Assembly: GCF_002127215.1 (NCBI RefSeq)
Contig: NZ_NFUT01000002.1
Coordinates: 1-64,000, forward strand
DNA from: Hydrogenophaga sp. IBVHS2
GTDB taxonomy: Bacteria; Pseudomonadota; Gammaproteobacteria; Burkholderiales; Burkholderiaceae_C
Direction: 5' to 3'
Length of the DNA stretch: 64,000 nucleotides
Shown here: piece after piece, positions 27,618 through 43,182 of the stretch
Layout: the number at the start of each line of letters is the position of its first letter
How positions within the stretch are numbered: position 1 is the stretch's first letter
Translations under genes and position numbers: made by a program
Notes under the pieces: generated by a model
Databases searched by the model: none
Seen by the model: only the letters and a program-made list of their open reading frames with translations
Told to the model about the DNA's origin: nothing

Positions 27618-27827
27618 ATTGGGCTCCCGGAGCAGAGCGACGGGCTGTCGGCTGGGTTAGGGCTGCTCCAGCGCGGATTATTCCCCCCCCGCCGGGCGGT
27701 GCCAATCCGGGTGCGCCCAGGGGTCCCTGCGTCCAGTTGGTGCACCGCTGAGGTATCCCGGTGCATGCGGGCACCGGGCTGCGCCTTGCAACGGGGCGAA
27801 ACCGGCCCGATCCGGGCCAAAAGGGGG
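27618..27827 (+). other. Intergenic stretch with GGTGCA/TGCACC half-sites
   Basis: No gene is seen here. It lies upstream of the sigma-54-like promoter. GGTGCACC (27739-27746), GGTGCA (27760-27765) and GGCACC (27770-27775) resemble NtrC half-sites and sit 50-90 bp upstream of the -24 element, where an enhancer is expected. The spacing between TGCACC and GGTGCA is 13 bases, not the canonical 5, so NtrC binding is only a possibility. Confidence 0.3.
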
Positions 27828-27843
27828 TGGCACGCATCCTGCT
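27828..27843 (+). promoter_or_regulatory. Sigma-54 (-24/-12) promoter of the first guanidine operon
   Basis: The sequence TGGCACG, four bases, CTGCT matches the RpoN consensus TGGCACG-N4-TTGCW in all but one base, with GG and GC exactly ten bases apart. The expected transcription start at about 27854 leaves roughly 54 nt before the riboswitch aptamer begins at 27908. Nitrogen-controlled transcription fits a nitrogen-rich substrate such as guanidine. Confidence 0.65.
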
Positions 27844-27907
27844 CTGCTGGACCGTGCATGGAAAGCGGTCTGCAACTGTCGGTTGCGGCAGCCAGTGCGT
27901 AGGTCCA

Positions 27908-27998
27908 CTAGGGTTCCGTCTGCGGCAACGCAGGGTCTGGTCCGAGAGTGGGCCGGCCTCGCCAGAGGCTCCACGGAGGGACAAAAGCCCGGGAGAAC
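27908..27998 (+). promoter_or_regulatory. Guanidine-I (ykkC) riboswitch
   Basis: The conserved guanidine-I blocks occur in order: CTAGGGTTCCG, a small hairpin with a CTGCG-CGCAG stem, TGGTCCGAGAG, a variable hairpin, then ACGGAGGGACAAAAGCCC and GGGAGA. This RNA binds free guanidinium and turns genes on. After the aptamer GGAGAAC (27992-27998) can pair with GTTCTCC (28011-28017), so the 3' edge of the aptamer may switch between two structures. No U-run follows, so control may be on translation or by Rho. It precedes the solute-binding protein gene by 50 nt. Confidence 0.95.
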
Positions 27999-28048
27999 GA
28001 CATCAGATCGGTTCTCCTGCGCCCATCCTTCACCACTGGAGCTTCATC

Positions 28049-29095
28049 ATGAAACTGGCAGGTCTCTTCTCTTCCTCGGCAGTCGGCTCGGCTTCTTCTT
28101 CCTCCTGGGCGCAGCGGCTGCTCAAGCCGGCCCTGGGCGCGGTCCTGGCGCTGGGCGCTGCCGGCGCCATGGCAGCCGGCCCCACCACCATGAAGATCGG
28201 CACCGTGGTGTGGATCGGCTACGGCCCGTTCTATGTGGCCGAGGCGCTGGACCTCTACAAGAAATACAACCTCAAGGTCTCGCTGCAGGTCTTCACCGAC
28301 CCGGCGCTGATCCCGCCCGCCATCGCCTCCGGCGCCATCGACGGCGGCATGCTGACCTACGACCAGGTGGTGGGCCAGGTGGCGGCGGGCAAGGCCATGA
28401 AGGTGGTCATGCCGATCGACTATTCCAACGGTGGCGATGCCATCGTGGCCGACGGCTCCATCAGCAAGGTGGCCGACTTCAAAGGCAAGAAGATCGGCTA
28501 CAACCCGCTCTCCCCGAGCGACTTCCTGCTCTCGTACGCGCTCAAGACGGTCAACCTGACCGAGAAGGACATCACCCCGGTCAGCATGACGCCCGAGGCG
28601 GTGCCGGCGGCCATGGCCTCGGGCCAGCTGCCGATCGGTGTGACGTATGAGCCCAGCCTGTCGCAGATCCTCGGCCAGGGCGGCGGCAAGAAGTTCAAGG
28701 TGGTGTTCTCGTCCAAGGACGCGCCGGGCCTGATCGCCGACGTGCTGGTGTTCGACGACAAGATGATCAAGGCCAAGCCGACCGAGATCACCAACATCAT
28801 GAAGGCCTACCTCGACGGCATGGCCTACATGAAGAGCAAGCCCGACGAGGCCGCGAAGATCATCGGCAAGTTCATGGGCGTCTCGGCCAAGGAAGCCAAG
28901 GAGCAGATGAGCGGGGTCTACAACATCCCCCTGGCCGAAATGCCCAAGGCCTTCGTCAAGAGCAAGGAGACCACCTCCTACTACGCCAGCGGCGAGGTGA
29001 TCGGCCAGCTGCTCAAGGCCAAGGGCCAGATCAAGGAAGTGCCCGCCATCGAGGCCACCTTCGACGCCTCGTTCGTCAAGGCCCTGACCAAGTAA
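28049..29095 (+). CDS. ABC transporter substrate-binding protein (guanidine operon)
   Basis: Protein of 348 residues in the NMT1/SsuA-like family. It has a long signal peptide ending GAVLALGAAGAMA before AGPTTMKIGTVVWIGYGPFYVAEALDLYKKY. The binding cleft pattern (IASGAIDGGMLTYDQVVGQVAAGKAMKVV) is typical of nitrate/sulfonate/taurine-type importers. Its permease and ATPase are absent here but occur as a pair at 36271-37985 behind a second copy of the same riboswitch, so the complex is probably assembled from both operons. The ligand is expected to be guanidine or a derivative. GGAG lies before the ATG at 28049. Confidence 0.9.
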   Translation: MKLAGLFSSSAVGSASSSSWAQRLLKPALGAVLALGAAGAMAAGPTTMKIGTVVWIGYGPFYVAEALDLYKKYNLKVSLQVFTDPALIPPAIASGAIDGGMLTYDQVVGQVAAGKAMKVVMPIDYSNGGDAIVADGSISKVADFKGKKIGYNPLSPSDFLLSYALKTVNLTEKDITPVSMTPEAVPAAMASGQLPIGVTYEPSLSQILGQGGGKKFKVVFSSKDAPGLIADVLVFDDKMIKAKPTEITNIMKAYLDGMAYMKSKPDEAAKIIGKFMGVSAKEAKEQMSGVYNIPLAEMPKAFVKSKETTSYYASGEVIGQLLKAKGQIKEVPAIEATFDASFVKALTK

Positions 29096-29111
29096 GCCCC
29101 GGGGGACCACC

Positions 29112-30122
29112 ATGGCATCGATGTTCCGTCATGCCGACGGCGCCCTGCCCAACACCGTGGCCATGGGGGTCACGGTGCTGGGCTGGCCGCTGGGCATCTG
29201 GCTGCTGGGTCAGCCCGCCTGGCCAGTGAACCTGGCCGGCGTGCTGCTGGTGGTGCTCACCCTGACCTGGTCGGCCTATTTCATCCACGAGTTCGCCCAC
29301 CAGGCCATCTTCCGCACGCCCCAGGCCAACGAGCGCTGGGGCACGCTGATGAGCTGGATCAATGGCAGCTGCTTTGCCCGCTTCGACGATCTGCGGCGCA
29401 AGCACATGCGCCACCATGTGGAGCGGGCCGACGTCATCACCTTCGACCTGCAGGCCTTCCTGCGTGCCCGCCCGCTGCTGTGCCGGCTGGTGCTGGCGCT
29501 GGAATGGCTGCATGTGCCGGCGGTGGAATTCATCATGCGCGGCTGCGTCATCGCCTTGCCCTTCATCGACGAGCGCAAGCGCAACGCCCGTACCCGCGTG
29601 GTGCTCACCGGCCTGGTGCGCCTGACCGGCTGGGGTCTGCTGGCCTGGTGGTCGCTCAAGGCGGTGGCGCTCTACCTGCTGGCCTATCTGCTGTTCATCC
29701 ATGTGCTGCGTTTTGCCGACTGCTTCCAGCACACCTACGACGCCTACCCCATCCTGGACGACAGGCCCATCCCCACCGACAAGGTGCGCGACCGGGCCTA
29801 CGAGCAGGCCAACACCTTCAGCGACGTGGTGGCCATCGATGCCCGCTGGCTCAATCTGCTGTGGCTGAACTTCGGCTTCCACAACGCCCACCACGAACGG
29901 CCGGTGGCGCCCTGGTACCAGCTGCCGGCGCTGCACCGCCAGCTGTATCCCGATGGCTGTGCCCAGGTCATCACCGTGGGCGAGCTGCTGCGCGCCTACC
30001 ACCGCCACCGGGTCACCCGGGTGCTGTCCAAGGACTATGGCGAGGTGCTGCCGCCTGGCACGCCGAACCGGGCCGACGGCTTCATCGGTGCGGTGGGCGT
30101 GTCCTTCCTGACCGCGGTATGA
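29112..30122 (+). CDS. Membrane fatty-acid-desaturase-like di-iron oxygenase
   Basis: Integral membrane protein of 336 residues with the histidine boxes of the FADS/hydroxylase family: HEFAHQ (His59, His63), HMRHH (His98, 101, 102) and HNAHH (His257, 260, 261), plus His207 in CFQHTYD. Several hydrophobic segments flank the boxes. The family includes desaturases, alkane and carotenoid hydroxylases. It is the second gene of a guanidine-riboswitch operon, 16 bp after the binding protein, and overlaps the next gene by ATGA. That context argues for oxygenation of a nitrogen compound, for example hydroxylation beside an N-alkyl group, rather than a lipid. This is inference. Confidence 0.8.
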   Translation: MASMFRHADGALPNTVAMGVTVLGWPLGIWLLGQPAWPVNLAGVLLVVLTLTWSAYFIHEFAHQAIFRTPQANERWGTLMSWINGSCFARFDDLRRKHMRHHVERADVITFDLQAFLRARPLLCRLVLALEWLHVPAVEFIMRGCVIALPFIDERKRNARTRVVLTGLVRLTGWGLLAWWSLKAVALYLLAYLLFIHVLRFADCFQHTYDAYPILDDRPIPTDKVRDRAYEQANTFSDVVAIDARWLNLLWLNFGFHNAHHERPVAPWYQLPALHRQLYPDGCAQVITVGELLRAYHRHRVTRVLSKDYGEVLPPGTPNRADGFIGAVGVSFLTAV

Positions 30123-30907
30123 CCACCACGCCCGGACCCCGGGTGGTGCTGACCGGCGCGGCTGGCGGCATCGGCCGGGCGCTGGCCCAGGCCTTTGCCC
30201 GGACATGCGCGGCGCAGGGCGGCCGGCTGCTGCTGGTCGACCGCGAGGCCGCGCCGCTGCAGGCCCTGGTGGCCGAACTCGACAGCCCGCAGGTGCACAG
30301 CGCCGTGTGCGACCTGGGCAGCGACGAAGCGGTGGCGGCCCTGGCCGCCAGCCTGGCCCAGGGCTGGGGCGGCGTGGACGTGCTGATCAACAACGCCGGC
30401 ACCGAATACCCCACGCCGCTGGACGATGCCGCGCCGCAGGCCAATGCCCGCTGGGCCGCCCTGCTCGACAACAACGTCACCAGCATGCTGCGTCTCACGC
30501 GCGCGCTGCTGCCGCTGCTGGGGGAGGGCGCTAGCGTCATCAACCAGTCGTCTATCTGGGGCCGCATCGGCGTGGCGGGCTTCTCGGCCTACAGCGCCAG
30601 CAAGCATGCGGTGGTGGGCCTCACGCGCTCGCTGGCCTTCGAGCTCGGGCCACGCGGCATCCGCGTGAATGCGGTCTGCCCCGGCTGGGTGCGCACCGCG
30701 GCCGCCATGCGGTCGCTCTCGGCCATGGCGCAGGAGCGGGGCTGCACCGAGGCCGAGGTGGAGCGCGAGATCCTGGCCCGTCAGGCGGTCCCGCAGATGC
30801 TGGAGCCGGCCGACCTGGCCGGCGTGTTCCTGTTCCTGGCCAGCCCGGCCTCGCGCGCGCTCACCGGTCAGTGCCTGAGCGTGAGCCATGGCGAGGTGAT
30901 GGCATGA
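30119..30907 (+). CDS. Short-chain dehydrogenase/reductase (first)
   Basis: SDR of 262 residues: cofactor motif TGAAGGIGRAL, NNAG at about residue 90, catalytic Ser-Tyr-Lys with INQSSIWGRIGVAGFSAYSASK and the C-terminal NAVCPGWVRTAA loop. The acidic residue after strand 2 (VDREAA) suggests NAD(H). It is coupled at both ends by ATGA overlaps. In this operon it could oxidise an alcohol or carbinol produced by the upstream oxygenase. Confidence 0.88.
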   Translation: MTTTPGPRVVLTGAAGGIGRALAQAFARTCAAQGGRLLLVDREAAPLQALVAELDSPQVHSAVCDLGSDEAVAALAASLAQGWGGVDVLINNAGTEYPTPLDDAAPQANARWAALLDNNVTSMLRLTRALLPLLGEGASVINQSSIWGRIGVAGFSAYSASKHAVVGLTRSLAFELGPRGIRVNAVCPGWVRTAAAMRSLSAMAQERGCTEAEVEREILARQAVPQMLEPADLAGVFLFLASPASRALTGQCLSVSHGEVMA

Positions 30908-31692
30908 ACCCCTGGCCCTCGGCGCGCACCGCCGCCGGCGTCACCGTGTCGCTCGCCGGGCGGCGCGCGCTGGTCACCGGTGCGGCCACCGGCATCGGCC
31001 GCGCCACCGCGCTGCGGCTGGCGCAGGCCGGCGCGCTGGTCTGGATCAACCACCTCGGGCAGACCGAGCAGGCGCGGGGCCTGCTGGACGAGATTGCAGC
31101 CATCGGCGGACAGGCCCGGGCGGTGGAGGCCGACGTGGGCTCTGCCGCCGAGGTGCAGCGCATGGCCGGGCAGATCGGTGCGCTGGACATCCTGGTCAAC
31201 AACGCCGGCATCCTGCAGGACAAGCCGTTCCTGGAGACCACCGAGGCCGACTGGGACCGGGTGCTCACGGTCGATCTCAAGGGCGTGTTCCTGGTCAGCC
31301 AGGCCCTCATGCCCATCCTGCTGGAGCGCCCGGACGACCCGGGGCGCGCCTGCATCGTCAACATCGCCTCCGACCTGGGTCTGCTCGGGCGCGGCCGCTA
31401 CGCCGCCTACTGCGCCGCCAAGGCCGGCGTGATCGGCCTGACCAAGGCACTGGCGCGCGAATTCGCGCCGCAGCTGCGGGTCAATGCGGTGGCGCCCGGT
31501 CCGGTGGCCACGGCCATGGTGTCGGCCGAACACATGAGCCCCGAGTGGCTGGAGAAGGAGCTGGACATTCCGCAGCACCGGCTGGCCGACCCCGGGGAAG
31601 TGGCCGACACGGTGCTGTTCCTCGCCAGCGACCTCGCGCGCTTCTACACCGGTCAGGTGCTCGGGCCCAACGGCGGCTCGGTCATGCCCTGA
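30904..31692 (+). CDS. Short-chain dehydrogenase/reductase (second, FabG-like)
   Basis: SDR of 262 residues: TGAATGIGRATAL, LVNNAGILQD, catalytic VNIASDLGLLGRGRYAAYCAAK and VNAVAPGPVATAM. It differs clearly from the preceding SDR in the strand-2 region (INHLGQTEQ) and substrate loop, so this is not a recent tandem duplication. It overlaps the first SDR gene by ATGA; the exporter gene follows after 16 bp. Confidence 0.88.
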   Translation: MNPWPSARTAAGVTVSLAGRRALVTGAATGIGRATALRLAQAGALVWINHLGQTEQARGLLDEIAAIGGQARAVEADVGSAAEVQRMAGQIGALDILVNNAGILQDKPFLETTEADWDRVLTVDLKGVFLVSQALMPILLERPDDPGRACIVNIASDLGLLGRGRYAAYCAAKAGVIGLTKALAREFAPQLRVNAVAPGPVATAMVSAEHMSPEWLEKELDIPQHRLADPGEVADTVLFLASDLARFYTGQVLGPNGGSVMP

Positions 31693-31708
31693 CCACACAG
31701 GACCCAGC

Positions 31709-32635
31709 ATGGCCCTGCTGCCCCGACACCCTTCCGACCGCCTCGCCACCGCCGTGTTGCTGTTCTCGGCCACGCTCTGGGGCCTGACCTGGATGCCGCT
31801 CAAGGCCTTCGTGGGCCAGGGCCTGACCGGCCCGGTGGTGTCGCTGCTCACCTACGGCTCGGTCGGCCTGCTGGCCGTGGTGATGCTGTGGCGCGACCGT
31901 GCCGCGTGGCGCAGCCAGTGGGCGCTGGTGCTGGGCCTGGTGCTGGTGGGTGGCTGGGCCAACACCTCGTTCGTCAATGCGGTGATGCTCGGCGACGTGG
32001 CGCGGGTGATGTTCCTGTTCTACCTGTCGCCGGTGTGGTCGGTGCTGGGCGGCCGCCTCTTTCTGAAGGAGCACATTCCCCCGGCCCGCTGGCTGGCGGT
32101 GGCCGGTGCCATCGTGGGCCTGTGGCTGGTGCTGGGCGGACCCTCGCTGTTCAGTGGCCAGTCGCTGGACTTCACGCTCGTGGATGCGCTGTCGCTGTCG
32201 GCCGGGCTGGCGTTCGCAGCCAACAATGTGATCGCCCGCGCGGCCGACCGGGTGCCGCTGCGCACCAAGACGCTGTCGGTGTTCGTCGGCTGCGGCCTGC
32301 TCTCGGCCCTGGCCACCGGCCTGCTGGGTCACAGCGTGCCGGACATGCCGGTGCTGCTGTGGGCCGCGCTGCTGGCCTATGGCTTCGGCTGGATGCTGCT
32401 GGCCACCATCACCTGGCAGTACGGCGTGAGCCACCTGGAGAGCAGCCGCGCCGGCGTGATCCTGCTGGCCGAACTGGTGGTGTCGGTCGGCACCGCCCTG
32501 GTCTTCGGTGGCGAGCGGCTCACGCCGCTGGGCTGGGCCGGCGGCGCCCTGATTGCCGTGGCCGCCCTGGCCGAAGCCCTCTTTCCGCCCGCGCCTGCGC
32601 GGCCCGTCGTGCAACCTTCCCCGCCTTCACCATGA
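31709..32635 (+). CDS. EamA/DMT family transporter
   Basis: Protein of 308 residues with about ten hydrophobic helices in two EamA repeats; the first begins LATAVLLFSATLWGLTWMPLKAFV and the second WMLLATITWQYGVSHLESSRAGVILLAELVVSV. DMT proteins often export metabolites. In other bacteria guanidine riboswitches control SMR-type guanidinium exporters (SugE/Gdx) of the same superfamily; this larger EamA protein is not one of them but could have a comparable efflux role. It overlaps creatininase by ATGA. Confidence 0.85.
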   Translation: MALLPRHPSDRLATAVLLFSATLWGLTWMPLKAFVGQGLTGPVVSLLTYGSVGLLAVVMLWRDRAAWRSQWALVLGLVLVGGWANTSFVNAVMLGDVARVMFLFYLSPVWSVLGGRLFLKEHIPPARWLAVAGAIVGLWLVLGGPSLFSGQSLDFTLVDALSLSAGLAFAANNVIARAADRVPLRTKTLSVFVGCGLLSALATGLLGHSVPDMPVLLWAALLAYGFGWMLLATITWQYGVSHLESSRAGVILLAELVVSVGTALVFGGERLTPLGWAGGALIAVAALAEALFPPAPARPVVQPSPPSP

Positions 32636-33447
32636 ACACCTCCGCTGCCACCGCCGGCCCGGCCCGCACCGTCTGGATGAACCAGCTCTCCTGGGTCGAT
32701 TACCAGCGCATCCTCCGGCAGGACCAGCCGCCGGTGCTGCTGCCGGTGGGTGCGCTGGAGCAGCACGGCCCGCACCTGCCCCTGGGCACCGACGGTCTGC
32801 TGGCCAGTGCGGTCTCGGCCGACACGGCAGCGCAGGTCGGCGCTCTGGTGGCGCCCACCTTGAGCTACGGCTACAAGTCGCAGCCCAAGTGCGGCGGCGG
32901 CCAGCATTTCTGCGGCACCACCAGCGTGGACGCGGCCACCCTGATCGGCCAGGTGCGCGACGCGGTGCGCGAGTTCGCGCGCCACGGCCTGCAGCGCCTG
33001 GTGGTGGTCAACGGCCACTACGAGAACCAGTGGTTCCTGATCGAAGGCATCGACCTGGGCCTGCGCGATGCGCGGGCGGCCGACCCTGCCTGCGCGCTGC
33101 AGGTGATGCGTCTGGAATACTGGGACTTCATGACCGAGCAGACGCTGGGCCATGTGTTCCCCGACGGCTTTCCCGGCTTTGCACTCGAACACGCGGCGGT
33201 GCTGGAGACATCGATGATGCTGCACTACCACCCCGCACTGGTGCGCATGGACCTGCTGCCCGACGACGGTCCGGCCGACTTCCCGCCCTACGACATGTAC
33301 CCCGCCCGCACCGACTGGGTGCCGGCCTCGGGCGTGCTGTCGTCGGCCCGCGGCGCGGACGCCGCCAAGGGCGCGCTGCTCGCGGCCGAGGTGGCCCGTC
33401 GCATGGCCGAGGCCATCCGCACCGGCTTCGAGCGGGGTACTGCATGA
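32632..33447 (+). CDS. Creatininase (creatinine amidohydrolase)
   Basis: Protein of 271 residues. Metal ligands of creatininase are all visible: Glu43 and His45 in GALEQHG, Asp54 in GTDGLL, His129 and Glu131 in NGHYENQ. The NGHYEN form and the segments YGYKSQPKCGGGQHF.GTTSVD, EYWDF and FPPYD follow Pseudomonas creatininase closely; other family members such as MftE or FAPy deformylase read NGHGGN. The enzyme interconverts creatinine and creatine. Creatine is a substituted guanidine, which fits riboswitch control, but no creatinase (creatine to sarcosine plus urea) is encoded here. It is coupled to both neighbours by ATGA overlaps. Confidence 0.88.
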   Translation: MNTSAATAGPARTVWMNQLSWVDYQRILRQDQPPVLLPVGALEQHGPHLPLGTDGLLASAVSADTAAQVGALVAPTLSYGYKSQPKCGGGQHFCGTTSVDAATLIGQVRDAVREFARHGLQRLVVVNGHYENQWFLIEGIDLGLRDARAADPACALQVMRLEYWDFMTEQTLGHVFPDGFPGFALEHAAVLETSMMLHYHPALVRMDLLPDDGPADFPPYDMYPARTDWVPASGVLSSARGADAAKGALLAAEVARRMAEAIRTGFERGTA

Positions 33448-34115
33448 GTGCCATTTCGCACCTCGATTCGGCCACCACCGCGCTGGTGGTGATCGACATG
33501 CAGCGCGACTTCTGCAGCGCCGGCGGCTATGCGCACCGGGCCGGGCTGGACATTGCCCGGCTGCAGGCGGTGGTGAAGAGCATCGCCCGGCTGCTGGCGG
33601 CTGCCCGTGCGGCCGGGCTGACGGTGGTGCACACCCGCGAAGGCCATCTGCCCGATCTGTCGGACTGTCCGCCGGCCAAGCTGGCGCGCAGCGTGGCGGC
33701 GGGTGCTGCCATCGGCAGCGCGGGTCCGCTGGGCCGGCTGCTGGTGCGCGGCGAACAGGGCCACGACTTCGTGCCCGAGCTGCGGCCCTGGCCGGGCGAG
33801 ACGGTGATCGACAAGCCCGGCTACGGCGCCTTCCACCGCACCGACCTGGAGGCCCGGCTCACCCGCCAGGGCATCCGCCGGCTGGTGCTGTGCGGCGTGA
33901 CCACCGAGGTGTGCGTGCACTCCACGCTGCGCGAGGCGGTGGACCGGGGTTACGCATGCACCACCGTGGCCGATGCCACCGCCGCCAGCCAGCCCGAGCT
34001 GCAGGCCCCGGCCCTGGCCATGATCGGGGTGGAGGGCGGCATCTTCGGGCGCGTGGCGCACACAGCCGAGCTGCTGGCCGACTGGCAGACGGCCGCGCTG
34101 GCCCGCCGGGCCTGA
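33444..34115 (+). CDS. Isochorismatase-like cysteine hydrolase (biuret hydrolase-like)
   Basis: Protein of 223 residues. Catalytic triad Asp18 (VVIDMQRDF), Lys124 (VIDKPGYGAF) and Cys157 (GVTTEVCVHSTLR), with the cis-peptide GVTTEV. The segment HTREGHLPDLSDCPPAKL resembles biuret amidohydrolase and related amidases. Guanylurea hydrolase of metformin-degrading pseudomonads belongs to the same superfamily and releases guanidine, so a ureido- or acylguanidine amide is a plausible substrate. The start overlaps the creatininase stop (ATGA). Confidence 0.85.
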   Translation: MSAISHLDSATTALVVIDMQRDFCSAGGYAHRAGLDIARLQAVVKSIARLLAAARAAGLTVVHTREGHLPDLSDCPPAKLARSVAAGAAIGSAGPLGRLLVRGEQGHDFVPELRPWPGETVIDKPGYGAFHRTDLEARLTRQGIRRLVLCGVTTEVCVHSTLREAVDRGYACTTVADATAASQPELQAPALAMIGVEGGIFGRVAHTAELLADWQTAALARRA

Positions 34116-34128
34116 AGGGAACGGCCGC

Positions 34129-34752
34129 ATGGACCGCTGGATCGACCTGCCGGCCCCGCAGCACCGGGTGGCGCCGGCCTATCGGGGCGTGTGGCGCCGC
34201 ACCTTGCTGGAAACCCCGCAAGGCCAGGACACCACCACCTCGGTGCACTGGCTGCAGACCGAGGGCTGGCATGCCGACCTGCGTGTGCCGGCCGGCCGGG
34301 AAGCCGACACGCCGCATAACCGCGTCCACTGGCAGGGCTTTTTCGGCATCACCCGCATCGAGCAACGGGCCGACGGTTTTCCGCCCATCTGCACCTGGCA
34401 GCGCCACTGGGACGTGCAGCCACCGCGCAGCACCCCGGACGCCGGCACCGTGGTGTTCGACACCCCCGACCGGCTCATCGAGTACGGCGTGCACGGGCAC
34501 TACCTGGAGGTGTGGGAACGGCTGCCGGATTCGCGGGGGCCCTGCGCGGCACAACAGCAGGTCGATGCTGCCGGTCGGCCCACCGGGTGGTACCGGTTTG
34601 CGGCCGGTGCCCACACCATTCTGGTGCGTGTCCGGCCGACGGCCTGGCCGCCCGGCACCCCGCCCGACCAGACCCTGGCCGAACGGGTGCAGCAGCAGCC
34701 CGACGCTGCCACGGCGCTGCTCGATTTCGAGATCCGCCACATCCGGGCCTGA
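34129..34752 (+). CDS. Conserved hypothetical, lipocalin/HRI1-like beta protein
   Basis: Protein of 207 residues without signal peptide or membrane segment. The pattern YRGVWRRTLLETPQGQDTTT, SVHWLQTEGWHADLRVP, RVHWQGFFGI, TWQRHWDVQPP, DRLIEYGVHGHYLEVWERL suggests an antiparallel beta barrel with many Trp and His residues, reminiscent of HRI1/lipocalin-like proteins. I cannot assign a function. It lies between the cysteine hydrolase (13 bp) and the metallo-beta-lactamase gene (3 bp), so it is part of the operon. Confidence 0.65.
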   Translation: MDRWIDLPAPQHRVAPAYRGVWRRTLLETPQGQDTTTSVHWLQTEGWHADLRVPAGREADTPHNRVHWQGFFGITRIEQRADGFPPICTWQRHWDVQPPRSTPDAGTVVFDTPDRLIEYGVHGHYLEVWERLPDSRGPCAAQQQVDAAGRPTGWYRFAAGAHTILVRVRPTAWPPGTPPDQTLAERVQQQPDAATALLDFEIRHIRA

Positions 34753-34755
34753 GCC

Positions 34756-35535
34756 ATGCGCACCGATCTGCCCCTGGCCCCTGGCGACTGGTTCGAGTTC
34801 CACTCGCTGGGCGACGGCCTGACCCTGATCACCGAACCGCACGTGGTGCCGCTCCTGCGCTGCAACATCTGGCATGTGCGCGGGCGCGAGCTCGATCTGG
34901 TCATCGACACCGGGCTGGGTGTGGCCAGCCTGCACCAGGCCTCGCGCCACCTGTTCGGCCATCGGGTGGCGGCCCTGGCCACCCATGTGCATCTGGACCA
35001 CGTGGGCGGGCACCATGAGTTTGCCGAGTGCTGGTGCCACCGCCTGGAGGCACCCGGCCTGCGCGGTGCCGATCCGGCCTTCACGCTGGGCGACATCGAC
35101 CTGGCGCAGCTGGATTTCCCGGCGCCGGGGTACGAGACCGGCGGCCCCGCGCTCACCGCACTGCCGTCGCCCGACTTCGATCTGTCGGCCTGGCAGCTGC
35201 GCCAGGCCAGCGTGACGCGCGAGCTGGACGAGGGCGACGTGATCGATCTGGGCAACCGCCACTTCGAGGTGCTGCACCTGCCCGGTCACTCGCCGGGCTG
35301 CATCGGCCTGTGGGAAGCCGCCACCGGGACCTTCTTTTCGGGCGATGCCGTCTACGACGGTCCGCTGCTCGATGGCCTGCACCATTCCGACCGCGCCGCG
35401 TATGCCCGCACCATGCAGCGCCTGCTGGACCTGCCGGTGCAGGTGGTGCACGCCGGTCACGACCCGAGCTTCGGCCGCGACCGCCTGCGGGAACTGGCGC
35501 GGGCTTATCTGGAGCGGCTGGACGATCCGGCCTGA
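34756..35535 (+). CDS. Metallo-beta-lactamase-fold hydrolase
   Basis: Protein of 259 residues. Metal-binding motif HVHLDH (His77, His79, Asp81, His82), then LPGHSPGC, SGDAVYDG and HAGHDPSFG for the remaining ligands, so a two-metal site is intact. The overall pattern is close to glyoxalase II-like hydrolases. As last gene of the riboswitch operon it may clear a thioester or lactone by-product of the pathway, for example a glutathione adduct of an aldehyde; this is speculative. The 3' end overlaps the convergent ankyrin gene by about 31 bp. Confidence 0.82.
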   Translation: MRTDLPLAPGDWFEFHSLGDGLTLITEPHVVPLLRCNIWHVRGRELDLVIDTGLGVASLHQASRHLFGHRVAALATHVHLDHVGGHHEFAECWCHRLEAPGLRGADPAFTLGDIDLAQLDFPAPGYETGGPALTALPSPDFDLSAWQLRQASVTRELDEGDVIDLGNRHFEVLHLPGHSPGCIGLWEAATGTFFSGDAVYDGPLLDGLHHSDRAAYARTMQRLLDLPVQVVHAGHDPSFGRDRLRELARAYLERLDDPA

Positions 35536-35987
35536 GCCTTCACCGGGTTCTTCTTGCCGATGCGGTCCCAGTCCCGGAGCGTCTGCTGCAGGCGGTTGCG
35601 CGCGTCGGTGTGGCTGGTGGCGAAGGCGGCGGTGAGCCGCTGGCGCAGCGCGGCATCCGGAGGCGGCTCCGCCCGTGCCTTGAGCCGGTCGATCAGCAGC
35701 ATGACCAGCTGAAAGCTGCCGGCCTGCAGGGCGAGTTCGAGCGGCGTGCGTCCCTGCTCGTCGGCCACGCGCGGGTCTGCCCCGTGTTCGAGCATGTGCC
35801 GCACCAGCCCGTGCCGGCCGCCGGCGCAGGCCCAGTGCAGCGGCACCAGTCCCCCGTCGAGCTTCGCCAGGAAATCGGCCCCCGGCGCCAGCAGCCCGGG
35901 GGCCAGCGGCCAGCCGGCGGCCTTGATGGCCTGTTGCAGGGCCCAGGGCAGGGGCGTGGGTTCGGGGGCAGGGTGGGCAGGGCACAT
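35505..35987 (-). CDS. Ankyrin-repeat protein
   Basis: Protein of 160 residues with about two to three ankyrin repeats (GGLVPLHWACAGGRHGLVRHMLEHGADPR and DEQGRTPLELALQAGSFQLVMLLIDRL). It starts at the ATG at 35987 and is convergent with the metallo-hydrolase gene. A protein-binding role is expected from the fold; no partner is evident. Confidence 0.75.
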   Translation of the reverse strand: MCPAHPAPEPTPLPWALQQAIKAAGWPLAPGLLAPGADFLAKLDGGLVPLHWACAGGRHGLVRHMLEHGADPRVADEQGRTPLELALQAGSFQLVMLLIDRLKARAEPPPDAALRQRLTAAFATSHTDARNRLQQTLRDWDRIGKKNPVKAQAGSSSRSR

Positions 35988-36012
35988 GGGGTTCGAGGGT
36001 ACGGCATCGGGC

Positions 36013-36028
36013 TGGCATCAATCGTGCT
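36013..36028 (+). promoter_or_regulatory. Sigma-54 (-24/-12) promoter of the second guanidine operon
   Basis: The sequence TGGCATC, four bases, GTGCT keeps the invariant GG (36014-36015) and GC (36026-36027) exactly ten bases apart, with TGGCA and TGCT matching RpoN consensus. The distance from this GC to the riboswitch (62 bp) is almost the same as in the first operon (66 bp), which strengthens both calls. Confidence 0.6.
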
Positions 36029-36087
36029 TTGATGTGCTCACAGAGAGGCGGTTGCACCACAACAGTGAACCGCAGCCTTGAATGACC

Positions 36088-36197
36088 GCTAGGGTTCCGG
36101 GCGCTGCCCCCGTCTGCACGGGTCTGCGGCGCCGGCTGGTCCGAGAGCGGTCGGCCACGATCGTGTGGCTCCACGGAGGGACAAAAGCCCGGGAGAA
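36088..36197 (+). promoter_or_regulatory. Guanidine-I (ykkC) riboswitch, second copy
   Basis: All conserved guanidine-I blocks are present: CTAGGGTTCCG, TGGTCCGAGAG, ACGGAGGGACAAAAGCCC and GGGAGA, identical to the first copy in these blocks while the two internal hairpins differ in sequence and length. Downstream GCACGC/GCGTGC forms a stem (36207-36223) and GAGA of the aptamer edge can pair with TCTC near 36235. It precedes the permease-ATPase-carboxylase operon. Confidence 0.95.
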
Positions 36198-36270
36198 GCT
36201 GGCACGGCACGCATGGAGCGTGCATGCGCTCGCCTCTCTGGCCTTGTGTCCCACCGATCAGGAGCCCTGC

Positions 36271-37122
36271 ATGCCGACCCCTGCCCATGCCCTCGCGGAG
36301 GCGCCCGCCACCACCCGACCACCCGCGCGCTGGTCGCGCCTGTGGACGGTGCGTGCCCCGATCGGCCAGCGCACCTGGCTCACCCTGGCCGTGATCGGCC
36401 TGCTCTCCCCGCTGCTGGCCTGGGCCGCGCTGGCCCGCTGGGGCGGCATCGACCCGACCTTCATGCCGTCACCGGCGGCCGTGCTGGCCAAGTCCTGGAC
36501 CTGGCTGGTGGAGGACGGGCTGATCGACGACATGGCCATCAGCACCTACCGGGTGGTCACCGGCTTTCTGCTGTCGGCCGTGATTGCATTGCCGCTGGGC
36601 CTGTTCATCGGCTCCTACCGCTCGGTGCAGGCGCTGCTGGAGCCGCTGACCGATTTCATCCGCTACATGCCGGCGGTGGCCTTCATTCCGCTGGTGATGC
36701 TGTGGGTGGGCATCGGCGAGGGATCGAAGATCGCCATCATCTTCATCGGCACCTTCTTCCAGATGGTGCTCATGGTGGCCGAGGACGTGCGCCGGGTGCC
36801 GGCCGCGCAGGTGGAAGCGGCCCAGACCATGGGCGCCAACCGGCGCGAGCTGGTGGAGAAGGTGATCCTGCCGAGCGCCAAGCCGGCGCTGCTGGACACC
36901 TTGCGGGTGACCATGGGCTGGGCCTGGACCTACCTGGTGGTGGCCGAGCTGGTGGCCGCCAACTCCGGCCTGGGCTACGCCATCCTGCGCGCCCAGCGCT
37001 TCCTGCAGACCGACACCATCTTCGCCGGGATCATCGTCATCGGCCTCATCGGCCTGCTCACCGACCAGGCGTTCCGCTGGCTGCACCGCCGAGCCTTCCC
37101 GTGGCTCTACCTCAAAGGATGA
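36271..37122 (+). CDS. ABC transporter permease (guanidine operon)
   Basis: Inner-membrane permease of 283 residues, SsuC/TauC type, about six helices. The EAA loop is visible as VEAAQTMGANRRELVEKVILPSAKPALLDTLR. The start is the ATG at 36271 (MPTPAHALAEAP). The frame stays open back to 36082, but that would translate through the riboswitch. It works with the ATPase next to it and the binding protein of the other operon. Confidence 0.92.
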   Translation: MPTPAHALAEAPATTRPPARWSRLWTVRAPIGQRTWLTLAVIGLLSPLLAWAALARWGGIDPTFMPSPAAVLAKSWTWLVEDGLIDDMAISTYRVVTGFLLSAVIALPLGLFIGSYRSVQALLEPLTDFIRYMPAVAFIPLVMLWVGIGEGSKIAIIFIGTFFQMVLMVAEDVRRVPAAQVEAAQTMGANRRELVEKVILPSAKPALLDTLRVTMGWAWTYLVVAELVAANSGLGYAILRAQRFLQTDTIFAGIIVIGLIGLLTDQAFRWLHRRAFPWLYLKG

Positions 37123-37127
37123 GCGCC

Positions 37128-37985
37128 ATGAGCACCACCCCCGAACACCGCCTGCCCAAGGTCTCCATCCGCGCCCTGCACAAGCGTTTCGACGGTGCGT
37201 CCATCAACGCGCTGGAGCACATCGACCTGGACATCCGGCCCAACGAGTTCGTGACCTTCGTCGGTGCATCGGGCTGCGGCAAGAGCACGCTGCTGCGCAC
37301 CATCGGCGGGCTGGAGACCCACACCGGCGGCGAGCTGCTGGTGGACGGCCGACCGGTGCAGGGTCCGGACATCGACCGTGCCATGGTGTTCCAGCACTAC
37401 AGCCTGTACCCGTGGATGACGGTGCTGGAGAACATCCGCTTCTGCCGCCAGCTGCAGGCCCACACCCGCGACCGCACCTCGGCCGACGTGGAGGCCGCAT
37501 CCGGCCGCAGCGACGCCCTGCTGCGCCTCATGGGCCTGCAGGATGCGGCCCAGGCCTGGCCCAACCAGCTCTCCGGCGGCATGCAGCAGCGTGTGGCGAT
37601 CGCACGCGCGCTCATGGGCCGCCCCGGCATCCTGCTGATGGACGAACCCTTCGGTGCGCTCGATGCCCAGACCCGCGAGGTCATGCACGACCTCATCCGC
37701 CATGTGCACCGGCTGGAGAAGGCCACCATCGTCTTCGTCACCCACGACGTGGAGGAGGCCATCTACCTGGGCAGCCGGGTGGTGCTGATGGCACCGCGCC
37801 CGGGCCGCATCGACACGGTCTACGAAGTGCCCTTCGGCGACCAGCGCGACCAGGACCTCAAGCACACGCCGGAGTTCCTGCAGCTCAAGCGCGAGATCCT
37901 GGCCCGCATCCGCGAGACCTCCGGCATGAAGACCGACCTGGAGCAGCTCCAGCGCCTGAGCCGCATCACCCCCGAAACCCTCTGA
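37128..37985 (+). CDS. ABC transporter ATPase (guanidine operon)
   Basis: ATPase of 285 residues with Walker A GASGCGKST, signature LSGGMQQRVAIARAL, Walker B ILLMDEPFGALD and switch VTHDVEEAIYL, the SsuB/TauB/NrtD type. I use the ATG at 37128, preceded by AAGGA at good distance; an ATG at 37119 overlapping the permease stop (ATGA) is also possible and adds three residues. Confidence 0.92.
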   Translation: MSTTPEHRLPKVSIRALHKRFDGASINALEHIDLDIRPNEFVTFVGASGCGKSTLLRTIGGLETHTGGELLVDGRPVQGPDIDRAMVFQHYSLYPWMTVLENIRFCRQLQAHTRDRTSADVEAASGRSDALLRLMGLQDAAQAWPNQLSGGMQQRVAIARALMGRPGILLMDEPFGALDAQTREVMHDLIRHVHRLEKATIVFVTHDVEEAIYLGSRVVLMAPRPGRIDTVYEVPFGDQRDQDLKHTPEFLQLKREILARIRETSGMKTDLEQLQRLSRITPETL

Positions 37986-38004: not shown

Positions 38005-38850
38005 ATGAGCGATCCGACCGATGCCGCGCCCTTGAACGACCCGCTCACCGTCGTCCCGGCCGACCCGCCGGCCCACAGCCCGGTGGACGCGCCCGCCCTG
38101 TGGCAGCGCTTCCCCGCAGCCGCACTGGCCGGCGTGGACACCACCCGCGCCCTGTGGAGCGAGGTCATGCCCGGCGGCAGCCACTGGAGCTGGCGCATGC
38201 CGCGCGGCACCGCCATCCGCTTCGTGGCCCTGCAGCCCGGCGCCAACCTGAGCCTGGTGCTGTATGCGGCGCACGAGAAGCTGGAGCGCTACAACATGCC
38301 CGACAGCCTCAAGGCCCAGCACACGGCGCGCTACACCCGCGGCCATGTGCTCATGAGCGACATGGGCCGCGCCATGGCCAGCTTCACCGCCGACAGCCTG
38401 GGCTGGCACGACCCGCTGGGCGCGCTGCTGGACGCCGAGCGCATGGCCGAGCGCTACGGCGTGCGCCGCTACGAGGACGCACGCAACGGCATGTACCGCT
38501 CCGGCAAGGACGGCCTGCTGATCGAGATCGGCAAATACGGCCTGACCCGGCGCGACCTGGGCGTGCCGGTCAACCTGTTCTCGCGCGTGGGGGTGGACGC
38601 CGAAGGCCGCTTCGGCTTCGTGCCCGACCACTGCAAGGCCGGCGACCATGTGGAGCTGCGCTTCGACATGGACGTGATCGTGGCGGTGTCGAGCGCGCCG
38701 CATGCGCTCGATCCGTCGCCGGTGTACGACCCGCGCCGCATCGGCCTGCTGGCCTGGCGCTGCGGTGCGGCACCGGCCGACGACTTCTGCCGCGCCTTCC
38801 GCCCGGAAAACGCCCGTGCCCTGCACAACACCGACATGCTCTACCTGTGA
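38005..38850 (+). CDS. DUF1989 protein, urea-carboxylase-associated 1 (carboxyguanidine deiminase subunit)
   Basis: Protein of 281 residues in the DUF1989 family: WSWRMPRGTAIRFVALQPGANLSLVLY, NGMYRSGKDGLLIEIGKYGLTRRDLGVPVNLFSRV. In known guanidine pathways two such proteins (CgdA and CgdB) form the carboxyguanidine deiminase that makes allophanate and ammonia. I do not assign A or B. It follows the ATPase gene by 19 bp; its partner starts 14 bp downstream. Confidence 0.9.
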   Translation: MSDPTDAAPLNDPLTVVPADPPAHSPVDAPALWQRFPAAALAGVDTTRALWSEVMPGGSHWSWRMPRGTAIRFVALQPGANLSLVLYAAHEKLERYNMPDSLKAQHTARYTRGHVLMSDMGRAMASFTADSLGWHDPLGALLDAERMAERYGVRRYEDARNGMYRSGKDGLLIEIGKYGLTRRDLGVPVNLFSRVGVDAEGRFGFVPDHCKAGDHVELRFDMDVIVAVSSAPHALDPSPVYDPRRIGLLAWRCGAAPADDFCRAFRPENARALHNTDMLYL

Positions 38851-38864
38851 GCCGGAGGCCCGCC

Positions 38865-39545
38865 ATGAACACCCTCGACACCGAAGCCACCGCCACCTCG
38901 TTCCGCATCCGCCACAGCACGCTGGACCCGGCCAAGGCCGTCATGAACCAGCGCCATGCGGCCGGCGAACCCATCCTGTTTCCCCTGAACCAGGGGCAGA
39001 CCCTGCGCATCGTCGACTTGGAGGGCAATCAGGCCGCCGACGTGCTGTTCTTCAACCGCGACGACGCGGCCGAGCACTACAGCGCCACCGACACCATGCT
39101 GCACCAGGGCGGCATCTACCTCACCACCGGATCGGTGATCCGCAGCAACGACGCCCGGCCCATGCTGACCATCGTGGCCGACACCTGCGGCCGCCACGAC
39201 ACCCTGGGCGGCGCCTGCGCGGCCGAGAGCAACACGGTGCGTTACGCGCTGCAGAAGAAGTACATGCACAGCTGCCGCGACAACTACCTGCTGGCCCTGC
39301 AGCAGGCCGACATCGGCCTGGGCAAGCGCGACCTGGTGCCCAACATCAACTTCTTCATGAACGTGCCGGTCACCGACGAGGGCGGCCTGAAGTTCGACGA
39401 CGGCGTCTCCGGCCCCGGCAAGTACGTCGAGATGCGCGCCGAGATGAACCTGTGGGTGCTCATCAGCAACTGCCCGCAGCTCAACAACCCCTGCAACGCC
39501 TACAACCCCACGCCCATCCAGCTGCTGGTCTGGGACCCGGCCTGA
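38865..39545 (+). CDS. DUF1989 protein, urea-carboxylase-associated 2 (carboxyguanidine deiminase subunit)
   Basis: Protein of 226 residues, second DUF1989 partner: [36 protein letters not shown] with Cys/His residues that can bind zinc, [10 protein letters not shown] and [18 protein letters not shown]. It pairs with the preceding protein to deiminate carboxyguanidine. A GGAGG ribosome-binding site precedes its start, and the carboxylase gene begins 13 bp after its stop. Confidence 0.92.
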
Positions 39546-39558
39546 GAACGGAGAACCC

Positions 39559-42500
39559 ATGTTCCGCAAGGTCCTGATCGCCAACCGCGGTGCCATCGCG
39601 TGCCGCATCATCCGCACCCTCAAGGCCCTGGGGGTGCAGAGTGTGGCGGTGTACTCCGAGGCCGATGCCCAGGCCCGCCATGTGCGCGAGGCCGACGAGG
39701 CGTGGCTGCTCGGCCCGGCCCCGGCGGCCGAGAGCTACCTGCGTGCCGACCGCATCCTGCAGATCGCCCGCGAATGCGGCGCCCAGGCCATCCACCCGGG
39801 CTACGGCTTCCTGTCGGAGAACCCGGCCTTTGCCCAGGCCTGCGAGGACGCCGGCATCGCCTTCATCGGGCCCACGGCCGCGCAGATGCGGGCCTTCGGC
39901 CTGAAGCACACCGCGCGGGAACTGGCGCTGCAGCAGGGCGTGCCGCTGCTGCCGGGTTCCGACCTGCTGGCCGACTTGGAGCAGGCGCGGGCCGAGGCGC
40001 AGCGCATCGGCTACCCGGTCATGCTCAAGAGCACGGCCGGGGGCGGTGGCATCGGCATGCGGCTGGTGCGCAACGAAGCCGAACTGGCCGATGCCTTCGC
40101 TTCGGTGCAGCGGCTGGCCCAGGCCAACTTCAAGGACGCCGGCCTGTTCCTGGAGAAGCTGGTCGAGCAGGCCCGCCACATCGAGGTGCAGGTGTTCGGC
40201 GACGGGCAGGGCGGGGTGCTGGCCCTGGGCGAGCGCGACTGCTCGGTGCAGCGCCGCAACCAGAAGGTGATCGAGGAAACCCCGGCCCCCGGGCTGAGCG
40301 ATGCCCAGCGGCGCGAACTGCAGGCCACCGCCGTGCGGCTGATGCAGGCGGTGAACTACCGCTCCGCCGGCACGGTGGAATACGTGTACGACGCGCAGGC
40401 TGGCGCCTTTTATTTCCTGGAGGTCAACACCCGGCTGCAGGTGGAGCACGGCGTGACCGAGCAGGTGACCGGCGTGGACCTGGTGGCCTGGATGGTGCAG
40501 CTCGCCGCCGGCGATCTGCCGCCGCTGGCCACGCTCGCTCCCACGCCGCAAGGAGCGTCCATCCAGGTGCGGCTGTACGCCGAAGACCCGGCCCGCCACT
40601 TCCAGCCCAGTGCCGGCCTGCTGACCGAGGTGGTGTTCCCCGACGGTGTGCGGGTGGACGGCTGGGTCGAGCGTGGCACCGAGGTGCCCGCCTGGTACGA
40701 CCCCATGCTGGCCAAGCTCATCGTCACCGCACCCGACCGCGAACAGGCGCTGCAGCGGCTCGACGCAGCCCTGGCCGCCACCCGGCTGGCCGGCATCGAG
40801 ACCAACCTCGACTACCTGCGCCAGGTGGTGCAGGACCCGGTGTTCCGCGAGGGCCGGCAGATCACGCGCTTCCTGGGCGGCTTTGCCTACCGGCCTTCCA
40901 CCATCGAGGTGCTGGAGCCCGGCGTGCAGACCAGCGTGCAGGACTGGCCGGGCCGCCTGGGCCACTGGGATGTGGGCGTGCCGCCGTCCGGCCCTATGGA
41001 CGCCTATGCCCACCGCATGGCCAACCGCCTGGTCGGCAACGCGCCGGATGCCGCCGCGCTGGAGATCACCCTGGCCGGCCCCACGCTGCGCTTTCATGCC
41101 GATGCGGTGATCGCGGTCACCGGCGCGCCGGCCCCGGTCACGCTGGACGGCCGCCCGCTGGCCCAGTGGCAGAGCCACGCGGTGGCTGCCGGCAGCGTGC
41201 TGGCCATCGGCCGCGCCGAGTCCGGCTGCCGGCTGTGCCTGGCGGTGGGCGGCGGCCTCGATGTGCCGCTGTACCTGGGCAGCCGCAGCACCTTCACGCT
41301 GGGGCAGTTCGGCGGTCATGCCGGCCGCCACCTGCGCACCGGGGACACGCTGCACCTGGCCGCCCCCGGCGCCGGCACCCCGGGCCGGCAGGCCACGGCG
41401 GCCGCGGTGCCGGCCTATGCCCACCACTGGGACATCGGTGTGCTGTACGGGCCGCATGGCGCGCCCGACTTCTTCACGCCGGCCGACATCGACACCTTCT
41501 TTGCCACCGGCTGGGAGGTGCACTACAACTCCAGCCGCACCGGCGTGCGCCTGATCGGCCCGAAGCCGCAGTGGGCCCGCACCGACGGCGGCGAGGCGGG
41601 GCTGCACCCGTCCAACATCCACGACAACGCCTACGCCATCGGCGCCATCGACTTCACCGGCGACATGCCGGTGGTGCTGGGCCCCGACGGCCCCAGCCTG
41701 GGCGGCTTCGTCTGCCCGGCGGTGGTGGTGGACGCCGAGCTGTGGAAGCTTGGCCAGCTGCGCCCGGGCGACACGGTGCGCTTCCACCGGCTGTCGCTGG
41801 CGCAGGCGCTGCAGCGCTCGGCGGCCATCGAGTCGGTCATCCAGGCCCCGGATGCGGCGGCGGCACGGCTGCCCGGCCCGCCGCAGGACGATGCCGCCGC
41901 CCACCCCAGCCCGCTGATCCACGACGACCCGGCGCGCGAGGCCGAGGACATTCCGCGCATGGTGGTGCGCCAGGCCGGCGACCGCTATGTGCTGGTCGAG
42001 TTCGGGCCGCTGGTGCTCGACATCGAGCTGCGCCTGCGGGTGCATGTGCTCATGACCGCCCTGCAGGGGCGCATCGCCGAAGGGCGCCTGCACGGCGTGA
42101 TCGACATGACGCCCGGCATCCGCTCGCTGCAGCTGCACTTCGACCCCGCCCTCATCGACCGCCAGACCCTGCTGGCCACGCTGATCGAGGCCGAGGCCGC
42201 GCTGCCGCCGGTGGACCACATCGAGGTGCCCAGCCGCATCGTGCACCTGCCCCTGTCGTGGGACGACCCGCAGACCCGGCTGGCGATCGAGAAATACATG
42301 CAGTCGGTGCGCAAGGACGCGCCCTGGTGTCCGAGCAACATCGAGTTCATCCGCCGTATCAACGGGCTGGACCGCATCGACGACGTGTTCAAGGTGGTGT
42401 TCGACGCCAGCTACCTGGTGCTGGGCCTGGGCGACGTGTACCTGGGCGCACCGGTGGCCACGCCGGTCGACCCCCGCCACCGGCTGGTCACCACCAAGTA

Positions 42501-43182
42501 CAACCCGGCCCGCACCTGGACGCCCGAGAACGCAGTGGGCATCGGCGGCGCCTACCTGTGCGTCTATGGCATGGAAGGGCCGGGGGGCTATCAGTTCGTC
42601 GGCCGCACGCTGCAGATGTGGAACCGCTGGCGCCACGGGCAGGGCGTGTTCGAACAGCCGTGGCTGCTGCGCTTCTTCGACCAGATCCGGTTCCACCCGG
42701 TGAGCGAGGACGAGCTGCACCGGATGCGCCAGACCTTCCCGCACGGCGGCTGTCCGCTGCGCATCGAGACCACCACCTTCAGCCTGCGCGAGTACCGGCG
42801 CTTCCTGGCCGACAACGCCGAGGGCATACAGACCTTCAAGACCCGGCAGCAGACGGCCTTCGAGGCCGAGCGCCAGCGCTGGGTCGACAGCGGGCAGATC
42901 ACCTTCGAGGAAGCGGCGTCGGTGGATGCCGGCGGCGCAGCCGACATCGATCTGCCCCCGGGCGGCCGCACCGTGGCCAGCAGCGTGCCCGGCAGCGTGT
43001 GGCAGGTGCTGGTCAGCGAAGGCCAGCAGGTCCAGGCCGGTGACGTGCTGATGGTGGTGGAGTCCATGAAGATGGAATTCAGCGTGCTGGCCCCGGCCAG
43101 CGCCACGGTGCACCGGCTCATGTGCCGCGAGGGCGCCCCGGTGGCCGCCGGCCAGGACGTGATGGTGCTGGTCGAGGCCTGA
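39559..43182 (+). CDS. Biotin-dependent guanidine (urea-type) carboxylase
   Basis: Protein of 1207 residues with the full urea-carboxylase layout: biotin carboxylase (1-450; [17 protein letters not shown]-grasp [11 protein letters not shown]), carboxyltransferase with KipA/KipI-like halves (about 455-1080; [42 protein letters not shown]) and biotinyl domain with Lys1171 in VESMKMEF, 36 residues from the end. Linkage to a guanidine riboswitch and two DUF1989 proteins indicates guanidine rather than urea as main substrate, since urea pathways do not need the deiminase. The reaction makes carboxyguanidine from guanidine, bicarbonate and ATP. Confidence 0.93.

Follow-up and report, generated by a model that had tools for sequence, protein, structure and literature searches.

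An operon behind a guanidine riboswitch in Hydrogenophaga sp. IBVHS2, with a membrane di-iron oxygenase and an MgdL homolog, that may free guanidine from substituted guanidines

We analyzed a 64,000-nucleotide stretch of Hydrogenophaga sp. IBVHS2 (assembly GCF_002127215.1, contig NZ_NFUT01000002.1, positions 1 to 64,000; hereafter 'the window'), in which two Guanidine-I riboswitches score above the Rfam gathering score (RF00442, cut-off 63 bits). The first is followed by a tight nine-gene operon made up of a substrate-binding protein gene (SBP1) and the eight genes from DES to MBL, in which neighbors either share ATGA overlaps or lie 3-16 bases apart. Three terminator-like sites were found in 27600-36400, compared with 2.0 expected in shuffled sequences, and all three fall within genes. 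An earlier reading of this DNA, made without database searches (the sequence-only reading), had described the eight genes as tightly coupled behind the riboswitch, and open reading frames (ORFs) and domain matches confirm their coordinates and strand; the gene directly after the riboswitch, however, is SBP1 (28049-29095), which lies outside the range that was noted. The first operon reads as follows:

27897..27997, +, Guanidine-I riboswitch 1 (Rfam RF00442, 85.8 bits)
28049..29095, +, SBP1, NMT1/SsuA-type substrate-binding protein of an ABC importer (Pfam PF09084; 92.5 bits against the urea-type NCBIfam model TIGR03427, below cut-off)
29112..30122, +, DES, membrane di-iron oxygenase of the FA_desaturase family (PF00487, 119.7 bits)
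30119..30907, +, SDR1, short-chain dehydrogenase (PF13561)
30904..31692, +, SDR2, short-chain dehydrogenase (PF13561)
31709..32635, +, DMT, EamA-type exporter (PF00892)
32632..33447, +, CRN, creatininase-family cyclic amidase of an SDR-linked clade (TIGR04448, 352 bits; residues; tree)
33444..34115, +, ISO, isochorismatase-like amidase with a guanylurea-hydrolase-type pocket (identity to a pMET-2 enzyme; pocket residues)
34129..34752, +, BET, MgdL-family protein with Asp50/Arg52 (homology; predicted beta-barrel model)
34756..35535, +, MBL, MBL-fold hydrolase (PF00753)

The genes after the second riboswitch form a guanidine carboxylase set. GCX matches a model named 'urea carboxylase' and is read here as a guanidine carboxylase because of its riboswitch and UAAP1/UAAP2 context, the latter two being, as we take it, the subunits now named CgdA and CgdB.

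36078..36197, +, Guanidine-I riboswitch 2 (Rfam RF00442, 86.5 bits)
36271..37122, +, PERM, ABC permease (NCBIfam TauC-type, 166.9 bits, below cut-off)
37119..37985, +, ATP, ABC ATPase (ORF named by eye; served as tblastn query)
38005..38850, +, UAAP1 (TIGR03425, 320 bits)
38865..39545, +, UAAP2 (TIGR03424, 330 bits)
39559..43182, +, GCX, urea/guanidine carboxylase (TIGR02712, 1900 bits)
43219..45045, +, AH, allophanate hydrolase (TIGR02713, 794 bits)

BET has no Pfam or NCBIfam match and had been called an unknown beta protein; the beta-barrel stands in a predicted model, and homology identifies the protein as an MgdL homolog, a lyase connection that the sequence-only reading did not hold. MgdL, published in 2025, is an N-(hydroxymethyl)guanidine lyase of narrow specificity for that compound: the 2-oxoglutarate (2OG) oxygenase MgdH hydroxylates methylguanidine, and MgdL, modeled as a beta-barrel, cleaves the resulting hemiaminal with Asp49 and Arg51, the genes lying in the order cgdAB, Guanidine-II riboswitch, gca, mgdH, mgdL and then allophanate hydrolase (PMC12508155). 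A BET profile of 28 rows (A1), made without any MgdL sequence, matches the protein that follows the 2OG oxygenase in genomes L092 and L093 (E 6.5e-25 and 5.4e-27). In both, the published order is reproduced as far as mgdL, with UAAP1 and UAAP2 first, then a Guanidine-II riboswitch, the carboxylase, a 2OG dioxygenase of MgdH type and the BET homolog; the protein at the MgdH position of L093 has 2OG domains by Pfam, and an allophanate hydrolase lies ~6 kb beyond the BET homolog in L093 while none was seen in the L092 stretch. The L093 homolog reads Asp49-Leu50-Arg51, exactly the published catalytic numbering, and BET is 39% identical to it (BLASTP, E 5e-20; hhalign 99.5%). The L093 protein is taken as MgdL on the basis of gene order, numbering and homology.

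The corresponding Asp50 and Arg52 of BET do not vary among the 28 A1 rows, and Asp-x-Arg is present in 12/12 aligned distant rows. In the predicted structure, an all-beta barrel with a mean pLDDT of 95.2, both residues lie on strand 47-53; the model is nearest to YLR301w and next to lipocalin-like folds. We therefore propose that BET may act as an N-(hydroxymethyl)guanidine lyase. L096, from the same genome as L093, holds a further pair beside an ABC transporter, made up of an MgdH-like protein (44%) and a BET paralog.

The published MgdL follows MgdH; in the window the proposed oxygenase is DES. It belongs to the FA_desaturase family by its PF00487 match and by its His boxes, three in number (H59/H63, H98/H101/H102, H257/H260/H261), whose eight His do not vary across 71 rows, a set in which some rows come from loci that overlap. 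A kinship with MgdH was considered and rejected, since DES matches PF00487 and shows no significant resemblance to the protein at the MgdH position of L093; among solved structures DES found no match up to E 1. We then asked which proteins accompany DES in a class sample of 369 genomes, using thresholds of E 1e-20 for DES, 1e-5 for the BET profile and 1e-25 for TIM, a xylose-isomerase-like TIM barrel of ~285 aa (PF01261 in the L112 member). DES occurs in 12 genomes, BET in 7 (including the host's own) and TIM in 7. DES is accompanied by BET or TIM in 10/12 genomes (8/10 without the own genus, p 2.9e-12), whereas BET and TIM occur together in 0 of the 369. TIM lies within ~3 kb of DES in L111-L114 and L116, five stretches in which no BET was found; in L111 and L114 the two genes are on opposite strands. 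Six of the seven TIM genomes have DES; in the seventh (L130), TIM adjoins an MgdH-like oxygenase at 54% identity, so far the one genome from which an MgdH-TIM pairing is known.

Since DES, and once an MgdH-like oxygenase, is found with TIM instead of BET, the partners look interchangeable. Two unrelated oxygenases combined with two unrelated partners is what one would see if DES and MgdH carried out one step and BET and TIM the following one, which would make TIM a candidate for a second type of hemiaminal lyase. Beyond the own genus, guanidine riboswitches at the Rfam gathering score were found in the L094, L110, L111, L112, L114 and L116 stretches, although that of L114 sits in the carboxylase operon ~7.5 kb from DES. 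These six genomes, in which DES of 40-55% identity from other families is still in the company of guanidine riboswitches, speak against the view that a guanidine-inducible operon is all that DES and the other genes have in common, their substrates being unrelated. Pfam's placement of DES among the fatty acid desaturases would suit such a view, which we hold to be highly unlikely.

The neighboring amidase ISO had been described as biuret-hydrolase-like, a label that its pocket residues do not sustain. It shares 59-62% identity with the cysteine hydrolase from Pseudomonas mendocina plasmid pMET-2 (CP098607), which is among its nearest relatives on named plasmids; by plasmid and neighboring deaminase gene, the pMET-2 protein is taken to be BB_00025, a demonstrated guanylurea hydrolase (PMC9800807). 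Biuret binding by BiuH involves Lys145 and Gln215, and the KM of a Gln215Glu variant is >25-fold higher (PMC5806882). At these two positions Tyr and Glu are found in ISO, as in the pMET-2 enzyme, as against Lys and Gln in two biuret hydrolases; the other ISO rows have Glu at 215 in 14/14 cases and Tyr (12/14) or Phe (2/14) at 145. ISO also scores 263.6 bits against the NCBIfam BiuH model, for which the cut-off is 370. By these residues the pocket appears to be of the guanylurea-hydrolase type, in a comparison that includes one reference enzyme (pMET-2, with GuuH of strain GU left out), and the Glu would suit a guanidinium group. A biuret hydrolase was thus rejected because Tyr/Glu replace K145/Q215, and an N-carbamoylsarcosine amidase because its matches were only weak. 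We propose instead that ISO may be an acylguanidine hydrolase, a reading absent from the sequence-only one.

To see how far the gene set is kept together, we scanned named genomes with the BET alignment, which confirmed 105 places, of which the best 80 were kept. Counts refer to the 59 of these 80 loci in which 7.5 kb or more of sequence precedes BET, the 21 with less upstream DNA being excluded; the 59 are non-independent and dominated by Hydrogenophaga, with Polaromonas, Rhizobacter, Rubrivivax, Plasticicumulans and others among the genera in the record titles. Hydrogenophaga pseudoflava and H. flava (L004-L006) are among the species that have the operon. Riboswitches were called by a short core pattern, which agreed with Rfam at 9/9 sites in seven checked loci. 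The full set of SBP1, DES, SDR1, SDR2, DMT, CRN, ISO and BET is present in 33 of the 59 loci, 32 times in that order, and individual counts are 44 for DES, 43 for an upstream riboswitch core, 40 for DMT, 39 for ISO, 37 for CRN and 35 each for SDR1 and SDR2. A riboswitch core lies upstream on the same strand in 42/44 DES loci and is missing from 14/15 loci without DES, an association that is more than chance. On this point the sequence-only reading is supported, as the genes do recur beside guanidine riboswitches in other genomes.

The loci also resolve into modules. CRN is accompanied by SDR1 in 35/37 loci and by SDR2 in 35/37, and neither SDR occurs in the 22/22 loci without CRN. Of the 44 DES loci, seven lack CRN, and five of these seven retain ISO. 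This pattern bears on a variant in which an SDR would turn N-(hydroxymethyl)guanidine into N-formylguanidine, from which ISO would release formate and guanidine, by-passing formaldehyde. The acylguanidine-type pocket of ISO would allow it, as would the position of SDR1 and SDR2 directly after DES, but ISO persists in those five of seven DES loci where CRN and both SDRs are gone (BET being in all by construction), and we think the variant quite unlikely. The last gene is the least constant: in many loci the window-type MBL is replaced by X, an AHL-lactonase/4-pyridoxolactonase-like MBL that lies before BET and, in the one member scanned, falls below NCBIfam cut-offs. Between 9 kb upstream and 3 kb downstream of BET, X is found in 30/59 loci, MBL in 8/59 and both in 0/59, while in L020, L023 and L045 MBL is situated further downstream of BET. 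Separately, a long PAS-GGDEF-EAL-like gene (by eye) precedes the BET homolog, with no DES nearby, in L062, L065, L067, L068, L071, L073 and L080, which are mostly Thiobacillus records.

CRN had been called a true creatininase, and family membership holds, as it passes TIGR04448 with 352 bits (cut-off 235), is 48% identical to the Pseudomonas putida creatininase and retains the metal ligands E34, H36, D45, H120 and E122 together with Tyr121, Tyr153 and Trp154. It nevertheless falls outside the creatinase-linked clade and has Phe in place of Trp174, a residue that presumably acts as a lid in creatininase and on which our literature search found no paper. Trp174 is present in P. putida and in 8/8 examined loci with a creatininase near a creatinase-type M24 gene (one such M24 protein matched creatine amidinohydrolase structures, and the remaining ones share 62-69% identity with that of L129). 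SDR-linked rows never have Trp at this position: it is Phe or Tyr in DES operons and Ala or Ile in the L126-L128, Salipiger and Rhizobium creatininases. In a tree of 36 rows, a single branch (99/99) splits 9 creatinase-linked from 23 SDR-linked rows, with the placement of five rows on long branches unsure. Among plasmid creatininases, surveyed in 11 of 24 matching records, Trp174 also occurs in L134 and L135 with no creatinase in the stretch, so that Trp does not mark creatinase linkage alone. Leu182, considered as a second pocket change, was dropped as uninformative because creatinase-linked rows also have Leu.

CRN, SDR1 and SDR2 form a separable module. A TIGR04448 creatininase was not seen in 9/12 DES genomes of the class sample, and CRN-SDR-SDR without DES is found in L126, L127 and L141 (Rhizobium sp. 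CIAT894) together with an agmatinase-like gene; there, the creatininase without Trp174, the two SDRs and the agmatinase-like ureohydrolase make up another unexplained guanidino-compound pathway. On the Salipiger sp. CCB-MM3 plasmid NZ_CP014599 (L132), a urea-type ABC transporter, an NtaA/DmoA-like FMN monooxygenase, a creatininase and two SDRs stand in a row, the creatininase having Ile at 174 and, in the alignment, Asn at metal ligand 120. Given the contexts without DES, the clade and the residues, the substrate of CRN would be a creatinine-like ring at best. A glutamine-synthetase-like gene (by eye) adjoins a distant (26-30%) creatininase-family gene in L091, L113 and L116, and in L091 and L116 this pair occurs with an ABC transporter and guanidine operon genes.

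These observations speak against the sequence-only route, in which CRN would convert creatinine to creatine, DES would oxidize creatine to free guanidine or guanidinoacetate, and the SDRs and MBL would take the carbon fragment. Its premise that the usual enzymes are missing agrees with the searches made: Creatinase_N (PF01321) has 0 matches in the assembled genome (3.17 Mb, 7 contigs, rated 93.4% complete), while 13/14 control genomes gave a match, and the monomeric sarcosine oxidase model TIGR01377 gave two weak matches, none over cut-off (heterotetrameric models were not searched). Together with the TIGR04448 score, this is what favors the route. Against it stand the separate clade without Trp174, the nine of twelve DES genomes without such a creatininase, the lack of the CRN module in 7/44 DES loci, the occurrence of that module without DES, and the narrow specificity of MgdL for N-(hydroxymethyl)guanidine (PMC12508155). 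We find a supply of creatine to the oxygenase very unlikely. The idea of a hemiaminal made by an oxygenase and releasing guanidine was right in kind, matching the published methylguanidine chemistry with BET as the lyase homolog; it is the creatinine part of the interpretation that is not supported.

A linear creatinine route can also be drawn without creatinase, following creatone chemistry: C5 hydroxylation to creatol, SDR oxidation to creatone A, opening by CRN to N-oxalyl-N-methylguanidine, cleavage by ISO to methylguanidine and oxalate, and demethylation by DES and BET to guanidine. It would employ nearly every gene of the operon; CRN keeps its five metal ligands, Tyr121, Tyr153 and Trp154, if not Trp174, ISO residues resemble an acylguanidine hydrolase, and CRN-SDR-SDR adjoins an FMN monooxygenase in Salipiger. 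Creatinine also yields creatol and methylguanidine abiotically, according to the part of PMC3775425 available. The enzyme steps, however, are all drawn from sequence; in L126 and L127, CRN-SDR-SDR with the agmatinase-like gene gave no match to DES, MgdH or the Salipiger FMN enzyme (three queries), and the DES-CRN association outside the own genus is 1/10 genomes (p 0.15). We regard this linear route as unlikely, and give no better odds to a wider view in which bacteria possess a complete O2-dependent pathway that turns creatinine into free guanidine and avoids creatinase and sarcosine, DES being a guanidine-specific membrane di-iron hydroxylase, BET and TIM two unrelated lyases of one hemiaminal, and the CRN clade a group of creatininases that open oxidized creatinine. 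If this held, creatinine would be among nature's sources of the guanidine that riboswitches sense.

Our preferred reading, which we hold to be reasonably probable, is that operon 1 frees guanidine from substituted guanidines and feeds the guanidine carboxylase operon after riboswitch 2. SBP1, PERM and ATP would import substituted guanidines. DES would hydroxylate the carbon next to a nitrogen of an N-alkylguanidine, most likely methylguanidine, and BET would follow as the proposed lyase of N-(hydroxymethyl)guanidine. ISO, judged by its pocket residues, would cut an N-acylguanidine such as guanylurea to guanidine. More tentatively, CRN, SDR1 and SDR2 might be an add-on that oxidizes and opens a cyclic creatinine-like guanidine into the same funnel. 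DMT would export surplus guanidine or substrate. Guanidine, the common product, would switch on both operons through the riboswitches matched by Rfam. Such a funnel is the most economical reading: several substituted guanidines would converge on the sole ligand that would induce both the operon and the degradation pathway. Given BET-MgdL homology, the swapping of oxygenases and partners and the ISO residues, guanidine release by an oxygenase with helpers, most simply from methylguanidine, appears well supported.

Several points weigh against this reading, beginning with its basis in sequence. FA_desaturase-family proteins usually act on lipids and hydrocarbons, not small cations. No riboswitch at gathering score was found around DES in L113, L115, L117 and the short L118. 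Two of the twelve DES genomes (G263, G167) have neither BET nor TIM, BET and DES lie on different contigs in G213, as do TIM and DES in G048, and the DES-BET link alone outside the own genus amounts to two genomes (p 0.006). In 14/59 loci BET is present while DES and a riboswitch are both missing, and in several of these it lies beside PAS-GGDEF-EAL-like genes, so the family may exceed one reaction. Finally, the MBL hydrolases have no clear pathway step.

Among neighboring genes, a small ankyrin-like ORF (by eye; 35505-35987, -) lies between the two riboswitch operons, and similar ORFs were seen by eye in L003, L008 and L011. Elsewhere, the genome has two arginase-family genes and one further creatininase-family match, a weak one (90 bits, below cut-off).

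The origin of natural free guanidine is the question behind the widespread guanidine riboswitches. With this operon, guanidine release gains a second candidate oxygenase, unrelated to the first, and a Burkholderiales protein family without a name (BET) gains a likely function; TIM is an alternative lyase candidate, and CRN belongs to a distinct creatininase clade. In a literature search that did not take in most subscription journals, we found no paper joining guanidine, riboswitch and creatininase, none joining guanidine carboxylase and fatty acid desaturase, and no desaturase-MgdL operon. In the accessible part of PMC2211319 a desaturase is tied to a B12 riboswitch, not ykkC, and the available parts of PMC11410670 and PMC11647477 hold nothing on these operon genes. 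Guanidine release by MgdH and MgdL is known; here a membrane di-iron oxygenase appears to stand in place of the unrelated published enzyme.

The Vreelandella boliviensis MgdH/MgdL system (PMC12508155) is similar in its guanidine riboswitches, guanidine carboxylase operon, ABC importer and BET-homologous lyase with Asp-x-Arg; the window differs in its oxygenase, of the membrane di-iron FA_desaturase family rather than a 2OG dioxygenase, and adds a creatininase, SDRs, an amidase, MBL and an exporter. Among the guanylurea hydrolases (GuuH; P. mendocina MET BB_00025, PMC9800807), the pMET-2 enzyme shares 59-62% identity with ISO and the same Tyr/Glu at BiuH positions 145/215, but ISO lies in a guanidine-riboswitch operon with an oxygenase and its substrate is inferred. 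Like the creatininase of the P. putida-type pathway of creatininase, creatinase and sarcosine oxidation, CRN is a TIGR04448 member with the metal ligands intact, whereas its clade is separate, Trp174 and a creatinase are missing, and two SDRs are linked to it. The operon after riboswitch 2 is of the same type as the guanidine carboxylase pathway (Gca, CgdAB, AtzF), from which the window differs in having operon 1 upstream, which would supply its substrate.

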